This document shows positions 11,089 to 60,858 of a stretch of 64,000 nucleotides of DNA, one piece after another (within the stretch, counting starts at the first letter, position 1; each line of letters begins with the position of its first letter). The stretch is from Lachnoanaerobaculum sp. ICM7 (GTDB lineage Bacteria; Bacillota; Clostridia; Lachnospirales; Lachnospiraceae). The notes beneath the pieces were generated by a model that saw only the letters and a program-made list of their open reading frames with translations, was not told the origin of the DNA and did no database searches. The stretch spans positions 62,001 to 126,000 of the forward strand of contig NZ_ALJL01000021.1 of the NCBI RefSeq assembly GCF_000287675.1, read 5' to 3'. The translations under genes and the position numbers were made by a program.

Positions 11089-11863
11089 TGCAAAGCACCT
11101 CCTTTGTCAATGACTGATATGCACTTGCCACTTTCCCATTCGGATCGTGCTTGTAGATGCTCACACCTTCCGCAGAAATTTCCGCTGCCCTTACCGACAT
11201 TGGAATACTATTTTCAAATATATGAACTTTGCTACCATAATTTTCAATAAGCAGATTACTGATATCTTTTGCATAATTGGTACGGTTGTCAACCATTGTT
11301 AGCAAAATTCCCTCAATCTCAAGTTTCTGATTAATCTGACGCTTTACTTTCCCTATGGTTTTAATAAGTTGTTCCAAACCTTTTATCGGTAAATATGCCG
11401 CCTGTACAGGAATTAAAATACTATCTGCACAAGTAAAAACATTTATTGTAATCATTCCAAGGGATGGCATACAGTCAATCAAAATATAATCATAATTGTC
11501 TCTCTGCAACTCTATATAGGTTCTCAGTACTGTTTCTCTACTCATCACATTAATAAGTGAAGTTTCCAAACCTGAAAGTTCTATATTTCCGGGTATAAAA
11601 TCAACTCCTTCATCATGGCTTAAAATTCCACAATCTGATCTTATTTCCTCATCATTAATAATGTTTCCCATTATAGTTGCAAGTGTAATTTCCAATCTAT
11701 CCGGCTCCCTAATCCCAAGACTTGCCGTAAGGCTTCCTTGTGCATCTGCATCTATCAACAGAACCTTCTTTCCTTGCCTTGCCAGTCCAATTCCCAAGTT
11801 ACTTGTTGTTGTGGTTTTTCCAACTCCACCTTTTTGATTTGCAATAGCTATAACTCTACACAT
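11081..11863 (-). CDS. parA: ParA family partition ATPase
   Basis: A 260-residue ParA/Soj-type ATPase that drives segregation together with ParB. The deviant Walker A motif IANQKGGVGKTTTTSN is at residues 7-22, Walker A' around YDYILIDCMPSLGMI, and the C-terminal part has the family pattern ending KVASAYQSLTKEVL. There is no N-terminal DNA-binding extension, so it is a small type Ib-like ParA. The ATG at 11863 follows AGGAGA. It opens the parA-parB-repA group. Confidence 0.94.
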   Translation of the reverse strand: MCRVIAIANQKGGVGKTTTTSNLGIGLARQGKKVLLIDADAQGSLTASLGIREPDRLEITLATIMGNIINDEEIRSDCGILSHDEGVDFIPGNIELSGLETSLINVMSRETVLRTYIELQRDNYDYILIDCMPSLGMITINVFTCADSILIPVQAAYLPIKGLEQLIKTIGKVKRQINQKLEIEGILLTMVDNRTNYAKDISNLLIENYGSKVHIFENSIPMSVRAAEISAEGVSIYKHDPNGKVASAYQSLTKEVLCNE

Positions 11864-55082: not shown

Positions 55083-56852
55083 TCAAATAATTTCCACCAT
55101 CATCCTTACTGCCGCTTTCCCCGCAATATGCTTATCTTCACTTGCAGAGCTTACAAGTACCGAATCGTCAAAATCATCGATATCCTTTACCACAAATTCA
55201 TCTCCTAAAGCAATCTTTTTTTCTTCCAGGTATTCAATCAAATCCCTGTCATCTTCAACTTTATGAAGGCGACATGAAATACCCTTTGATACCTCCGAAA
55301 GCTTTTTTAATTTATCGGTCTCCGGATGATTTTCGTATATTTCATTTCCGTGTGGGCAGTGCATAGGTTTATTTAGAAATTCATTCAGTCTGTCCTTTAG
55401 TCCGTTTGAAGTGACATACTCCAAAGCTTTTGCATCCTCATGGACATCCTGCCATGAATAACCCAGATATTCCACCAGAAACAATTCCCACAATCTATGC
55501 TTTGTCAGCAATGCTCTGGCCCTCATTTTACCTGTTTCCGTCAAAAGAATCGACTTGTTCTCAGTATATACTTCACCCTCTTCTACCAGTTTTTTTAACA
55601 TCTCACTTACAGATGCAGCCTTTACTCCCAAAATCTCCGAGATCTTTTTATTTGTTGCAATTTCCTTTTTCTCAATAAGCTCATAAATTGCTGAAATATA
55701 ATCATCTCTACCGGTGTCTATCTTAGCCATATCATTTTCCCTTACTCTGAGTCCGTAATGTTTTCTTATATCATCACTTAACTTTTTACCCGTTTCAGTC
55801 AGGGAATATACACCTCTTTCTTTTGCACGATAAACATATCCCTTTTTTATCAGCTTGTCCAAAACATATTTGAGCTTACTGTCAGACCAGGCAATATGCT
55901 CTCTGATTGTACTGTATCCCAATTCACCAAGAGCATTTTTCTTTCCTGTATGATTATCTATATGTAAAATCAAAAGTTCCCTACTGAAACGATTTTTGTT
56001 TTTAATGTATCTTATAATCTTAGTAATGATTCCACCGGGATATACTGCAATGGTTATCATAAATGTTAAACCTGAAACCAAAGCACACATTCCCGACATG
56101 GATACATTAAATTTTACAGCAAGAAAATAACCAATGCAAGAATTAACTACTGCATATACAGCCGCCAAAAATATTGTTATTTTAAGGTCCTTTGAAATCA
56201 GATATGCACTTGCAGCCGGTGAAATAAAAAAGGATATTGTAAGTATCGCACCTACCGACTCAAACGCAGAAACTGCAGTAAATGAAACCAAAGCCATAAA
56301 AACATAATAAAGACCTGCCCCTGCAATACCGGCCACTCCGGCATATACAGGATCAAATGAACTTATTTTCAGTTTTCTAAAAAAGACCGCTATAAATACT
56401 GTATTTATCAAAAGCACAAAAACCATCTGTACCAAAGCCTTTGGAAGGCTTAATCCAAGGAAATTTATTCTATGAAGCGGAGCCAGTATAATTTCTCCAA
56501 TCAAAACCATCTCAGTATCCAGATGTACATTTCTTGCATATCTTGTAATAAGTATAACGGCTATCGAAAAAAACAGCGGAAAAATTATACCTACAGAAGC
56601 ATCTTCCGTCACTCTTTTACTTTTTATCAGTAACTCTATACAAACAGTCGTTAAAACACCGAAAAGACTTGCTCCTATTATTAATAAAACACTCCCTATA
56701 TCTTTAGTAACAAAATATCCTATAACTATTCCAAGAAGGACGGAATGTGAGATTGCATCAGAAACCATTGAAAGTCTTCTTAACACTAAAAACACTCCCA
56801 AAACAGCACAGGCAAGCGAGGTTATTATAAGAATATACAAAGATTCAATCAT
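55083..56852 (-). CDS. Metal ABC permease fused to DtxR-family repressor (YtgCR-like)
   Basis: A 589-residue fusion. Residues about 1-275 are an MntB/ZnuB/YtgC-type permease with about eight membrane helices (ACAVLGVFLVLRRLSMVSDA, ISHSVLLGIVIGYF). Residues 289-360 form an extra winged helix (KYVLDKLIKKGYVYRAKERG). Residues 375-589 are a complete DtxR/MntR-type repressor: helix-turn-helix (NKKISEILGVKAASVSEML), metal/dimer domain (ALLTKHRLWELFLVEYLG, KPMHCPHGNEIY) and an SH3/FeoA-like end. The only known parallel I can name is Chlamydia YtgCR. An internal ATG at 55730 with AAGGGA upstream could also make free repressor. The start overlaps the other permease gene by four bases. Confidence 0.93.
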   Translation of the reverse strand: MIESLYILIITSLACAVLGVFLVLRRLSMVSDAISHSVLLGIVIGYFVTKDIGSVLLIIGASLFGVLTTVCIELLIKSKRVTEDASVGIIFPLFFSIAVILITRYARNVHLDTEMVLIGEIILAPLHRINFLGLSLPKALVQMVFVLLINTVFIAVFFRKLKISSFDPVYAGVAGIAGAGLYYVFMALVSFTAVSAFESVGAILTISFFISPAASAYLISKDLKITIFLAAVYAVVNSCIGYFLAVKFNVSMSGMCALVSGLTFMITIAVYPGGIITKIIRYIKNKNRFSRELLILHIDNHTGKKNALGELGYSTIREHIAWSDSKLKYVLDKLIKKGYVYRAKERGVYSLTETGKKLSDDIRKHYGLRVRENDMAKIDTGRDDYISAIYELIEKKEIATNKKISEILGVKAASVSEMLKKLVEEGEVYTENKSILLTETGKMRARALLTKHRLWELFLVEYLGYSWQDVHEDAKALEYVTSNGLKDRLNEFLNKPMHCPHGNEIYENHPETDKLKKLSEVSKGISCRLHKVEDDRDLIEYLEEKKIALGDEFVVKDIDDFDDSVLVSSASEDKHIAGKAAVRMMVEII

Positions 56853-57736
56853 TTACCTACCCTCATCTTCCTAATATTTAAAAGCATTCTCACAATACCT
56901 CTCGGTGCAAACAATACAGAAAAGAGAGCAATGACAGACATAATAAGTATAATGCTTGGTCCTGTGGAAAATCCCTTCACCGCACTGCTTATAAAAGTAC
57001 CTAAAAAGGCAGATACGGCTCCTGTTACCGCCGCAATCACTAAGACTTTCTCATAACTGTTACTCCATTGCAAACCTGTAACCGCAGGTGTTATAAGCAT
57101 ACTGCTTATAAGAATGGCACCCACCGCCTTTAGACCTGCCGCAATCAAAATCATGGTTATTATCATTATAAGAAGAGAGGTAAGCCTTGAATTTATCCCT
57201 ATTGTATACGCATAAACCATATCAAAAACATATACCTTTATCTCTTTGTAAAAGACTATAAATAGGGCAAGAGATATGACAGATACAGCGAGTATTATAT
57301 AAACATCTTCTCTTAGTATATATGCCGCCTGTCCGAATATATAGCTTGCAAGCCCCGACTGCGAAGCGCCCTGATATTTCGGATTACCCTGTATATAACT
57401 TTTTAATACCATACCCATACCGAACATTGCAGATAAAATGACAGCCATTGCGGTGTCCGCTTCTATCTTTGAGCCTTCCGAAATAATCTGTATCAGTAAA
57501 AAAGCGACTATGCCTGCCACTATTGCACCGAGCATTAAAATAAGAGAACTTTTTCTTCCGGATATCATAAATGCTAAAATTATTCCGGGAAGTGATGCAT
57601 GACCTACAGCATCACCTATCAGACTCTGCCCCTTTAAAATACTTATAGTTCCGACTATACCTGTTGCCATGGCAAGCAGCATTGTTCCTATCGCAACCAC
57701 AATAAACGAATACTGTGTAATAATACTTATATTCAT
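56849..57736 (-). CDS. Metal (Mn/Zn/Fe) ABC transporter, permease
   Basis: A 295-residue permease of the ABC-3 (MntB/ZnuB/TroC) family with about eight hydrophobic segments. Typical stretches: GIVGTISILKGQSLIGDAVG, HASLPGIILAFMISG and GAILISSMLITPAVTGLQW. It would pair with the permease half of the downstream fusion protein to form the heterodimeric channel. The ATG has GGGGAG upstream; its stop overlaps the fusion start as ATGA. Confidence 0.94.
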   Translation of the reverse strand: MNISIITQYSFIVVAIGTMLLAMATGIVGTISILKGQSLIGDAVGHASLPGIILAFMISGRKSSLILMLGAIVAGIVAFLLIQIISEGSKIEADTAMAVILSAMFGMGMVLKSYIQGNPKYQGASQSGLASYIFGQAAYILREDVYIILAVSVISLALFIVFYKEIKVYVFDMVYAYTIGINSRLTSLLIMIITMILIAAGLKAVGAILISSMLITPAVTGLQWSNSYEKVLVIAAVTGAVSAFLGTFISSAVKGFSTGPSIILIMSVIALFSVLFAPRGIVRMLLNIRKMRVGK

Positions 57737-57739
57737 AGC

Positions 57740-58450
57740 CTACTCCCCATATGTCGCATCTATATTCTCTTTCACAAAGGTTTCCTCAGTCCTTCCGCTT
57801 GCTATAAGCTGCTTATTAACCATAATTACATGATCGAAATATTCGCATAGGGTGTTTAAATCATGGTGTACCGCTATAATGGTCTTTCCCTCTTTTTTAA
57901 ACTCCCTCATTGTTTCTATAATTATATTCTCTGTTTTCTTATCAACTCCTGCAAGCGGTTCATCCATAAAGTAAATAAGGGCATTCTGAGCAATTGCCCT
58001 TGCTATGAATACCCTTTGTTTTTGTCCCCCTGAAAGTTCTGAAATCTGTCTGGATGCAAAATCTTCCATTTTCATTTTTTTCAATGCTTCCAAAGCTTTT
58101 TCCTTTTCAGAAGCATTTACTCTTTTAAATAAGCCAAGTCCCGCATATCTTCCCATTGTCACCACATCAATTACCGTGGTGGGAAAATTCCAGTTTACCG
58201 TGGTGGTCTGAGGTATATAAGCAATCTGCTTATATACCTCCTTGTAAGACTTACCCATAATACTTACTTTACCTGAAATAGGCTTCATAAGCCCCAGTAT
58301 TCCCTTCATTAATGTGGATTTACCGGCGCCGTTTGGCCCTATTATTGCAGTAATACTTCCCTCATATATATCAAGATCCATATCCCATATTACAGGAATA
58401 TCCGTATATGCCATTGTAAAGTCTTCCAAATGTATCAATACTTTTTCCAT
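57740..58450 (-). CDS. Metal (Mn/Zn/Fe) ABC transporter, ATP-binding protein
   Basis: ATPase of 236 residues. Walker A IIGPNGAGKSTLMKG, Q-loop YIPQTTTVNWNFPTTV, typical of the zinc/manganese group, signature ELSGGQKQRVFIARAI and Walker B ALIYFMDEPLAGVD are present. The ATG at 58450 has GAGG six bases upstream; the frame extends to a TTG at 58462. It lies between the binding-protein gene and the first permease. Confidence 0.95.
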   Translation of the reverse strand: MEKVLIHLEDFTMAYTDIPVIWDMDLDIYEGSITAIIGPNGAGKSTLMKGILGLMKPISGKVSIMGKSYKEVYKQIAYIPQTTTVNWNFPTTVIDVVTMGRYAGLGLFKRVNASEKEKALEALKKMKMEDFASRQISELSGGQKQRVFIARAIAQNALIYFMDEPLAGVDKKTENIIIETMREFKKEGKTIIAVHHDLNTLCEYFDHVIMVNKQLIASGRTEETFVKENIDATYGE

Positions 58451-58467
58451 ATCTAACCTCAAAGGTA

Positions 58468-59463
58468 CTATTTTAAATTGTCGGTAATAAGTTTTACATT
58501 ATGCTTATACATATCAATATATGTATCGCCATCTTCACCCTTTGGTGCCAAAGAATCTGAAAACAACTCATTTCCTTCACCGCTTACGATCTTTACATCC
58601 GCTCCCTTTGCGGCTGCACCTTCTCTTAACTTTTCCATACGTGCAGGATCTGTTGTAGATTCTGCAAATATAGCTTTTATTTTATGTTCCACTATAAAAT
58701 CTATAGTTTCTTGTATATCCTGATTTGCCACCTCCGATTCGGTGCTTACACCTTGAGGTGCTTTTACTTCTATGTCATATGCTCTTGAGAAATAATTAAA
58801 TGCATCATGAGGTGTAATCAAATATCTGCTCTCCTTAGGTATTGAAGAAATATTCTCCTTTACATACTCATCAAGCTTTGTAAGTTCCTCCAAATACTTT
58901 GTCTTATTCTCTTCATACTTATCCTTATATTCAGGGTTCAAATTTTCAAGTGATTCACCTGCAGCTTCTACAGCCATCTTATAAAGTCCTATATCAAACC
59001 AGAAATGCGGATCTGTAATAACTTGTCCGTCTTCATCCATTGTTCCTATACGATCTTTCGGAAAATTTCTGCTCACAGCCTCGCCTTTAGCTTCAAGTGC
59101 CTCCACCATTTTACCTTCAAAATGAAGTCCATGATAAAGTGTAAGATCTGAAGAACTAAGTTTTGTATAGTCCTCAGGCTTTGCAACATATAAATGCGGA
59201 TCCTCTCCGGCAGGTATTATAAGCTCTACATTAACAGTATCACCTGCAAGTTGTTCTACCATATCCTGTAAAAATGAAGTTGTAACAACCACATTCTTCT
59301 TATTCATGGTATCACTGCTTGCTTTTGATGTTTCCTCCATTGACTTTGACTCTGTATTTTGTGCAGTAGCATTAGTATCTGAAGTTTTCCCTCCTGCACA
59401 TGCACAAAGTGATAAAGCCATTCCTGCGGCTGCAATAAGTATACTCAAATTTCTTTTAAACAT
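58468..59463 (-). CDS. Metal-binding lipoprotein of ABC transporter (ZnuA/TroA type)
   Basis: Substrate-binding protein (cluster 9) for Mn, Zn or Fe; 331 residues. Leader with lipobox LCAC (Cys about 22), Ser/Thr-rich linker, then VVVTTSFLQDMVEQLAGD. Metal ligands: His in AGEDPHLYVAKPEDY (about 111), His in TDPHFWFDIGL, His in YLITPHDAFNYFSRAYDI, and Asp near the C-terminal end. There is no His-rich loop as in many ZnuA, so Mn or Fe is as likely as Zn. First gene of the operon, AGGAGG site, under a DtxR-type box. Confidence 0.94.
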   Translation of the reverse strand: MFKRNLSILIAAAGMALSLCACAGGKTSDTNATAQNTESKSMEETSKASSDTMNKKNVVVTTSFLQDMVEQLAGDTVNVELIIPAGEDPHLYVAKPEDYTKLSSSDLTLYHGLHFEGKMVEALEAKGEAVSRNFPKDRIGTMDEDGQVITDPHFWFDIGLYKMAVEAAGESLENLNPEYKDKYEENKTKYLEELTKLDEYVKENISSIPKESRYLITPHDAFNYFSRAYDIEVKAPQGVSTESEVANQDIQETIDFIVEHKIKAIFAESTTDPARMEKLREGAAAKGADVKIVSGEGNELFSDSLAPKGEDGDTYIDMYKHNVKLITDNLK

Positions 59464-59504
59464 ATTATCCCCTCCTAATGAATTAGGTTATTTTATTTTT
59501 ATAA

Positions 59505-59558
59505 TTAGGTTTACCTAACTATATTTTTATTTATACCTTATTTCATTCAAGAAATCAA
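59505..59558 (-). promoter_or_regulatory. Metal transporter promoter with DtxR-type operator
   Basis: On the minus strand TTGATT (59553-59558), 17 bases, TATAAA (59530-59535). Just behind, over the expected transcription start, lies the palindrome TTAGGTTTACCTAA (59505-59518), the form of DtxR/TroR/MntR-type boxes. A further half-site TTAGGT (59483-59488) follows at 22 bases, about two helical turns. The site would let the repressor fused to the permease of this same operon shut off transcription when metal is high. Confidence 0.8.
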
Positions 59559-59725
59559 GTACAATGCAGAGTATTTTATAAATTAAATTCTTCACGTGAA
59601 TACAGATAATTACAATAAAATACCTTTTCGTAAATAATATTCCGTTATTCTTTAAAATTTATTCTGTTATTTTCGCCGAAATTCAAAATTAGTTACAATA
59701 TAGTAAGATAAACTTAAGTCTAAAG

Positions 59726-59763
59726 GACTATATTTTCTACTAAAAATACTTTAGAATATAGTC
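59726..59763. promoter_or_regulatory. Inverted repeat upstream of the second cell-wall-binding gene
   Basis: GACTATATT (59726-59734) and AATATAGTC (59755-59763) are a perfect 9-bp repeat with 20 bases between, in the AT-rich 59559-59814 region that holds no gene. A second small palindrome GCAGGATAACCTGC (59786-59799) lies in the leader next to the ribosome site. They may be operator and leader hairpin. Confidence 0.45.
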
Positions 59764-59814
59764 ATAACATTAAAAGATTTATTTCGCAGGATAACCTGCA
59801 GAATGGAGGAAAAT

Positions 59815-60858
59815 ATGATAAGAAACCATATTAAAAAAGTGGCTTCAGTTGTTTTAACGGCTTCCATGATTCTTGGAATGACCGGTGTGGCTTTTGCCAG
59901 AAACACAAAGACAGTTGTACAGAATGTAAGGATCAATATAAATTACGATCTTGCACCGGGTATGAATGCCGGAAACATTGATGTAGACAGTGACAGTGCA
60001 GGAGTTGACGATGTAAAAGTCTCTTCTATTACAAACACCGACTTCGGTAAGAAACCTAAGGTTACTATCAAGGTAAAGCCTGATGAGGACTATACATTTA
60101 AGGGAACTCCTTCAGGTAATATTACACTTAATGATGCTACAGGTAAGGGCGCTACAATCTCTAAAGTTTCTACAACAAGCGGAAATATGTCAATCACAGT
60201 AACTCTTCCAAAGACAAGCGCAGGTGATAGCGGTGCATTGGAAGTAAACGATATTTCATGGGGTGATGATGACAGTCCTGTAGTTACATGGGAAAGTGCA
60301 AATTACGCAAAGCAGTATGAAGTAAAGCTTTATCGTAACAATTCAATCAAGGACAATATCACAACATCAGGAACAAGCTATGACTTCCGCAGCAAGATCC
60401 GTGAGTACGGTAAGGGAAGCTATACTGTAAAGATTCGTGCAGCTGCAAGCAACGGTACTAAGGGTAACTGGACAGAGTCAGATGAGTTTGATGTAGATGA
60501 AGATATTTTAGCAAGCCTTGGCGGACAGTCAAGTTCAAATAACGGAAGTTCTACAGGACCTAACGGTTCAAGTGCAGGTAATACAGGCGCTTGGTTAAAG
60601 GACAATGTAGGCTGGTGGTATATCAATGCCGACAGAACATATACAACAAACAACTGGCAGCAGATAGGCGGCAACTGGTACTATTTTGATAACAGAGGTT
60701 ATATGGTGACCGGTTGGCTTAAGAGCCCATATTCAGGTAAGTGGTATTGGCTCAGCACAGAGGGTGGAAGCAATCTTGGTAAGATGCTTACAAATCAGTG
60801 GGTTGATAACAATCGCTACTATGTAGACGGAAGCGGTGTTTGGACACAGAGCAGATAA
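59815..60858 (+). CDS. Secreted cell-wall-binding repeat protein (paralog of 19502-20698)
   Basis: A 347-residue exported protein. Signal peptide MIRNHIKKVASVVLTASM... cleaved after about VAFA. Residues about 30-135 are a beta domain (VRININYDLAPGMNAG, DEDYTFKGTPSGNI), about 145-225 a fibronectin-like part (YEVKLYRNNSIKDN, YTVKIRAAASN), then a Ser/Asn/Gly linker and about four choline-binding-type repeats (NNWQQIGGNWYYFDNRGYM, TGWLKSPYSGKWYWL). The ATG at 59815 has GGAGG five bases upstream; the in-frame ATG at 59803 overlaps that site. The shared plan with the protein at 19502 marks a family of surface proteins in this genome. Confidence 0.86.
   Translation: MIRNHIKKVASVVLTASMILGMTGVAFARNTKTVVQNVRININYDLAPGMNAGNIDVDSDSAGVDDVKVSSITNTDFGKKPKVTIKVKPDEDYTFKGTPSGNITLNDATGKGATISKVSTTSGNMSITVTLPKTSAGDSGALEVNDISWGDDDSPVVTWESANYAKQYEVKLYRNNSIKDNITTSGTSYDFRSKIREYGKGSYTVKIRAAASNGTKGNWTESDEFDVDEDILASLGGQSSSNNGSSTGPNGSSAGNTGAWLKDNVGWWYINADRTYTTNNWQQIGGNWYYFDNRGYMVTGWLKSPYSGKWYWLSTEGGSNLGKMLTNQWVDNNRYYVDGSGVWTQSR

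Follow-up and report, generated by a model that had tools for sequence, protein, structure and literature searches.

An operator-like box in the leader of a metal ABC operon that ends in a permease-repressor fusion in Lachnoanaerobaculum

Results

Organization of the metal ABC operon

We analyzed a window of 64,000 nucleotides from the genome of Lachnoanaerobaculum sp. ICM7 (2.78 Mb, 38 contigs). The features discussed below are listed in Table 1. The locus brings together a binding protein, an ATPase and two ABC-3 permeases, the gene content of tro/mnt-type ABC operons. The nearest solved sequences of the lipoprotein include 3mfq (E 3e-112) and the TroA structure 1toa, and the best NCBIfam matches of the ATPase are Mn/Fe ABC ATPases, below the cut-offs of these families. 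Based on the binding protein, the matches of the ATPase and the type of repressor, the imported metal is most likely manganese or ferrous iron. No Nramp-type manganese importer was found in the genome.

Table 1. Coordinates of the features of the operon, its leader and the free repressor gene (window positions unless a contig is given)
Feature	Position	Strand	Remarks
-35 hexamer TTGATT	59553..59558	-	17 bp to the -10 hexamer
-10 hexamer TATAAA	59530..59535	-	
Operator box TTAGGTAAACCTAA (TTAGG-N4-CCTAA)	59505..59518	-	Exact match
Putative half-site AACCTAA	59483..59489	-	22 bp between the plus-strand starts of half-site and box
Shine-Dalgarno sequence AGGAGGGG of the first gene	59469..59476	-	
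Metal-binding lipoprotein (TroA/MntC type, ZnuA family)	58468..59463	-	PF01297, E 8e-73
ABC ATPase (TroB/MntB type)	57740..58462	-	PF00005; start uncertain, first in-frame start TTG
First permease (TroC-like by position and size)	56849..57736	-	PF00950, E 2e-59
Fused permease, winged helix and DtxR-family repressor	55083..56852	-	589 aa; last gene of the operon
Winged-helix extension of the permease (residues about 290-366)	55755..55985	-	Weak Pfam winged-helix matches
Ribosome-site-like stretch before Met375	55731..55748	-	GTAAGGGAAAATGAT, then ATG
Repressor domain from Met375, SloR/ScaR type	55086..55730	-	Matches to sequences of solved structures
Free short DtxR	C16:238256		Beside a P-type ATPase gene, divergent from feoA-feoA-feoB

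The last gene encodes a permease domain (PF00950, residues 2-269) followed by the two domains of a DtxR-family repressor, PF01325 (Fe_dep_repress, residues 383-433) and PF02742 (Fe_dep_repr_C, residues 438-506), both above their cut-offs. A FeoA segment at residues 517-586 fell just below the Pfam cut-off. A structure model built from 16 sequences (mean pLDDT 74, pTM 0.47) resolved permease, winged-helix and repressor modules, with the winged-helix segment modelled as helix-helix-strand-strand and a low-confidence linker at residues 370-380. A C-terminal winged helix on a TroD-like permease was also observed with tblastn in some relatives whose repressor is a separate protein.

Among solved structures, the repressor domain is closest in sequence to SloR (5cvi, E 1e-33), and ScaR ranks third (3hrs, E 3e-28). 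The ligands of site 1 in SloR are H76, E80, C123 and H125 (PMC9253540), and the published ligand lists include D160 in the ScaR set (PMC9253540, PMC4805248). All site-1 ligands of SloR and MtsR are kept in the fused domain (H452, E456, C499 and H501), together with D534 of the ScaR set. Site 2 of SloR (D7, E99, E102 and H103) is retained only in part: D384 and E478 are kept, whereas E99 is replaced by K475 and H103 by Y479. The fusion of Johnsonella retains the site-2 histidine. Since site 2 of MtsR is described as different from that of SloR (PMC9253540), these changes weaken the likeness to SloR itself but not the assignment to the wider type.

Distribution of the fusion

We detected the full-length fusion in six of 145 genomes (G000 to G005), which are all six of the sampled Lachnoanaerobaculum, and it was also present in Johnsonella. 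A wider set of 391 genomes, in which as many as three candidates per genome were scored, showed no additional full-length fusion. When homologous loci were considered (the best 80 of 468 confirmed named loci with related permeases), the fusion was found in four, namely three Lachnoanaerobaculum records and Johnsonella. The permease itself is often extended, with stop-to-stop frames of 365-390 aa in 67 of these 80 loci. In the other relatives that we read, the repressor, where found, is encoded by a separate gene that often adjoins the permease gene, and at the three junctions inspected (G424, G265 and G472) the repressor begins at the stop of the permease. The fusion is intact in seven genomes, which rules out a sequencing error.

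Several candidates for additional fusions were rejected. An apparent frame of 509 aa in G490 proved to be two genes separated by a stop codon, and the long frames of L126, L145 and L150 arise because the stop-to-stop frame reaches upstream of the permease. Among the matches listed by searches of titles and abstract openings in the open-access literature, only the chlamydial permease-DtxR fusions were relevant, and no work on regulation was found for Lachnoanaerobaculum and manganese.

The operator box and promoter in the leader

On the minus strand, the leader of the operon reads TTGATT, 17 bp, TATAAA, 11 bp, the box, 41 bp that contain the Shine-Dalgarno sequence, and the ATG at 59463. The preliminary description of this DNA had placed a palindrome just behind the predicted -10 hexamer, and the 14-mer TTAGGTTTACCTAA is indeed found there, exactly, at 59505-59518. 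If transcription starts about 7 nt past the -10 hexamer, the box would lie at roughly +5 to +18. We compared the leaders of the six Lachnoanaerobaculum genomes and of Johnsonella: CTTGATT is found at -35 in all seven, and TATAA is kept at -10 in the six Lachnoanaerobaculum leaders, while Johnsonella presents TTATATAT instead. The tro promoter was omitted by our promoter scanner, which accepts only -10 hexamers that end in T.

Under a first-order Markov model, a window of 64,000 nt is expected to contain about 0.001 exact copies of the 14-mer and 0.07 copies of TTAGGN4CCTAA, and chance alone does not account for where the box lies. When up to three mismatches to the 14-mer were allowed, we found no excess in the window (nine matches versus 9.5 in shuffled sequences). 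A search of positions 58300-60300 against Rfam identified no family at cut-off, so that a riboswitch in the leader was rejected; a sub-threshold snoRNA match was located elsewhere (E 0.31). The upstream region of a divergent gene adjoins the tro leader and contains no perfect box. This gene (59803-60858, plus strand) encodes a secreted protein whose C-terminus resembles, by eye, choline-binding-type repeats.

Conservation and recurrence of the box

TTAGG-N4-CCTAA was found in all seven leaders at a distance from the -35 hexamer that is constant within 1 bp. The arms are invariant while the four central nucleotides take six forms among the seven leaders (TAAA, TAAG twice, TTGA, TTAT, TTAA and CAAG on the transcribed strand). 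These leaders represent about three independent lineages, since four of them are closely related, with fused genes that are 92-99% identical at the DNA level.

The box was also searched before the first gene of the best 80 of the 468 homologous loci, 79 of which were scorable. The box was perfect in 26 loci, mismatched at one position in 12, at two in 16 and at three or more in 25; 53 of the 79 operons therefore present no perfect box, and 41 present none within one mismatch. Loci of the fused type contributed four of the 26 perfect boxes, and 22 of 75 loci had a perfect box once they were removed. Background windows from the same loci yielded two perfect boxes out of 2798 and 20 within one mismatch, and the reversed pattern was never perfect in the same upstream segments (0/75; 3/75 within one mismatch). 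After clustering at 70% permease identity with the fused loci removed, 8 of 28 clusters had a perfect box and 15 had one within one mismatch. The box precedes the binding-protein gene when the repressor gene is last in the operon, and it precedes the repressor gene when this gene comes first, as seen for nine of the 14 repressor-first loci, which carry a perfect box (from the same best 80 of 468).

On raw counts, a perfect box was strongly associated with the presence of a troR-like gene at the same locus (24/46 versus 2/29 without such a gene; Fisher p 5e-5). This significance was lost when relatives were collapsed to one locus per 70%-identity cluster and the fused loci were removed (6/15 with a troR-like gene nearby versus 2/13 without; p 0.22). 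The box family is secure, and its tie to a nearby repressor is only suggestive. TTAGG-N4-CCTAA constitutes a testable consensus for tro/mnt operons in part of the Bacillota and at one Chloroflexota locus (L193). Among the matches listed when six forms of the 14-mer were searched in the open-access literature, only unrelated work on DNA walkers was found.

The half-site and other copies of the box in the genome

The preliminary description had also proposed a half-site 22 bases from the box. AACCTAA is present at this spacing, but its role as part of the operator was not established: it is exact in only four of the seven leaders, reads AACCTAT in Johnsonella and TACCTTT in the two most divergent congeners, and the core ACCT is shared by all seven, with the same spacing throughout. 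The half-site pairs weakly with the Shine-Dalgarno sequence (-3.2 kcal/mol) and may instead act through this pairing.

The expectation that further copies of the box would define a regulon was not borne out. The genome contains three perfect copies of TTAGGN4CCTAA, against 3.0 expected by extrapolation from the composition of the window and ten copies of the reversed pattern. Judged by letters and place, the tro copy alone recurs in all six Lachnoanaerobaculum genomes (the between-genome comparison of places was made for this copy). Of the other two perfect copies, one (C9:9162) is located downstream of a flavodoxin-like gene, and the second (C28:78670) precedes a frame of 136 aa by 30 nt. Because the number of copies is that expected by chance, the box most likely serves the tro operon alone.

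A free DtxR and an iron-type motif

All six Lachnoanaerobaculum genomes that we searched also encode a free short DtxR. G002 has two such genes besides the fusion; the other four congeners and the genome of the window have one each. Among its neighbors, the P-type ATPase and FeoA were named by eye and FeoB by PF07664. The feo intergenic region (L090, positions 11199-11491, within G000:C16:230000-246000) contains GTTAGTGTATGCTAAC and two similar sites. The corresponding pattern GTTAGN6CTAAC occurs at 16 sites in the genome of the window versus two for the reversed pattern, and each of the six Lachnoanaerobaculum genomes contains 15-19 sites versus 1-3. Among the other Lachnospiraceae listed, it was commoner than the control in 24 of 31.

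We scanned 9 of the 21 flagged frames near these sites with Pfam. Sites were found upstream of the Feo locus, of a FecCD permease, of a FeoB-associated/HMA gene and of a DUF3793 gene that is followed by a flavodoxin-like gene. More sites precede pyruvate-formate-lyase-like, CstA and hemerythrin-PAS genes, and others precede methyltransferase, AstE/AspA-type and cell-wall-repeat-like genes with no obvious tie to iron. GTTAG-N6-CTAAC apparently marks an iron regulon of Lachnospiraceae, which would be a separate one, and the position of the free short DtxR suggests that this protein is perhaps its regulator. In the genome of the window and in G005, pairs of sites 144-145 bp apart also occur before large genes (L226, 1546/1691; L237, 1534/1678; L238, 1536/1681), and the genes of L226 and L238 appear cell-wall-repeat-like by eye.

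The tro box resembles this motif: it matches GTTAGN6CTAAC exactly in two of the six genomes (G004 and G005) and departs from the pattern at a single position in the other four, including that of the window. The tro box nevertheless carries an inner G and C that are present in 7/7 tro leaders versus 0/16 exact iron-type sites in the genome of the window, and the flanking C of the iron-type motif is missing in five of the seven tro leaders. Of the 24 perfect tro boxes found outside the two genera, 12 carry G at -1 and 10 carry C at +1.

A possible internal start of the repressor

The ribosome-site-like stretch within the fused gene precedes Met375, which falls in the linker, where the separate repressors of relatives start. 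When in-frame ATGs were ranked by their pairing as Shine-Dalgarno sites, Met375 came first of 13 here and first of 18 in Johnsonella; in the four congeners other than G002 its ranks were 2/14, 3/12, 3/13 and 4/12. The longest run of identity with G005 is 46 nt and extends from the GGG to past the ATG of Met375. Striking as this identity is, selection on the RNA at the internal start was not retained as an explanation: the longest run of same codons was 13 codons, with a permutation p of 0.20 for G005 and likewise for G004, for which the first 13-codon run (the one given among ties) ends at codon 111.

Met375 is presumably the leftover start codon of an ancestral repressor gene, and internal initiation at this codon appears plausible. 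We prefer a freed repressor, released through an internal start at Met375 or through cleavage, over a membrane-tethered one; cleavage as in YtgCR and a tethered repressor are also possible candidates. The low-confidence linker of the model fits release by any route. It is conceivable, although on balance doubtful, that one gene yields both the full permease-repressor and a second protein, a free repressor made from Met375 through the ribosome site of the ancestral troR. If true, translation of the operon itself would set the dose of the repressor, and the membrane-bound copy would perhaps sense metal at the importer; such a system would be a non-proteolytic, independently arisen counterpart of the chlamydial YtgCR.

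Discussion

With an operator-type box where transcription of the metal operon is predicted to begin, and a repressor domain fused to a permease of that same operon, an autoregulatory loop is the natural reading of this locus. We infer, with a probability of roughly 0.65, that the box is the operator of a tro/mnt-type operon that is autorepressed by the fused DtxR-family domain. When metal is plentiful in the cytoplasm, the C-terminal domain would bind it at the SloR/ScaR-type site 1, dimerize and occupy TTAGG-N4-CCTAA at about +5 to +18. This occupancy would block RNA polymerase, and the domain would let go as metal falls. Two published systems act in a comparable manner: TroR of Treponema denticola is reported to repress the tro promoter in a reporter system (PMC2628430), and YtgR, the C-terminal part of a permease fusion, is reported to repress its own ytg operon (PMC6504234, PMC5599777). 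The preliminary description had proposed such feedback control. Its core stands, with a DtxR-family-type operator at the predicted start of transcription and a repressor domain fused to its own permease, but neither the half-site nor a regulon defined by the box came through.

Another candidate regulator is the free short DtxR encoded next to feoAB. It might control the operon as part of the iron regulon, the fused domain being no regulator or only a modulator. This protein is encoded in all six Lachnoanaerobaculum genomes, the iron-type motif is over-represented in the same six and precedes FecCD, Feo, FeoB-associated/HMA and DUF3793 genes, and the tro box is an exact GTTAGN6CTAAC in G004 and G005. 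We nevertheless consider control by the free DtxR unlikely: the inner G and C separate all seven tro leaders from all 16 exact iron-type sites in the genome of the window, the flanking C is absent from five of these leaders, and in other families, too, the box with inner GG/CC precedes tro operons that have a repressor gene nearby. Moreover, the free DtxR is assigned to the iron-type motif itself from its position. It is also conceivable that both regulators share the box through overlapping half-sites, the fused domain sensing manganese and the free DtxR sensing iron. The TTAG/CTAA common to both motifs and the G at -1 (12/24) and C at +1 (10/24) of tro boxes outside the two genera would fit such dual control, which we regard as less probable still, since similar half-sites are expected anyway within one protein family.

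Finally, the palindrome could be a chance match in AT-rich DNA or could act in RNA rather than DNA. The absence of a genome-wide excess (three copies with 3.0 expected, and ten reversed) is what a chance match would give. The position of the box, the conservation of its arms around a variable center and its recurrence before homologous operons rule out a chance palindrome and oppose an action in RNA as well, for which Rfam also offered no family at cut-off. We judge these two explanations together to be very improbable; of all the readings, we favor autorepression through the fused domain.

To our knowledge, YtgCR is the only permease-repressor fusion that has been studied. It belongs to an obligate intracellular pathogen, in which experimental manipulation is difficult. 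As in YtgABCD/YtgCR of Chlamydia trachomatis, an ABC-3 permease and DtxR domains are encoded here in one frame. We took the chlamydial layout from published papers, whose description sets YtgCR apart: the repressor follows the TroC-like YtgC and ytgD is separate, whereas the last, TroD-like permease is fused here, with an extra winged helix. From this published layout, the likeness between the two fusions appears to be convergent. YtgR is reported to be a cleavage product (PMC7755916, PMC6504234, PMC5599777); in the fusion described here, what is presumably an old start codon survives in the gene with a ribosome-site-like stretch before it.

The TroABCDR system of Treponema presents the same gene order as published, with a binding protein, an ATPase, two permeases and a repressor, and its TroD of 366-367 aa has a size that fits a permease with an extra domain (PMC2628430). 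Its operator and sigma70-type promoter are described upstream of troA, as here (PMC2628430). The treponemal repressor, however, is a separate gene whereas ours is fused, and the 18-bp treponemal operator, given as TTTTGATATATCAAAA in the T. denticola oligonucleotides (PMC2628430), differs from the box, which shows no such 18-bp dyad. The streptococcal repressors SloR, ScaR and MtsR resemble the fused domain in that SloR and ScaR are among its three closest solved sequences and the site-1 ligands are conserved. They differ from it in being free proteins, and two of the four site-2 ligands of SloR are changed in the fusion. The DtxR and IdeR operators of Actinobacteria are 19-bp palindromes with TTAGG and CCTAA arms set at a wider spacing. 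The arms of the box are alike, but they lie 4 bp apart and do not form the 19-bp palindrome.

Judged from its sequence, the box is a genuine operator-like element. The operon that it precedes is of a known kind, but includes a permease-repressor fusion that is uncommon and that would resemble YtgCR in principle while involving the other permease. A second fusion, on another permease and in Lachnospiraceae, offers a new case in which to study the path of a transporter-bound repressor to DNA, and it makes it possible to ask whether importer and sensor are coupled.
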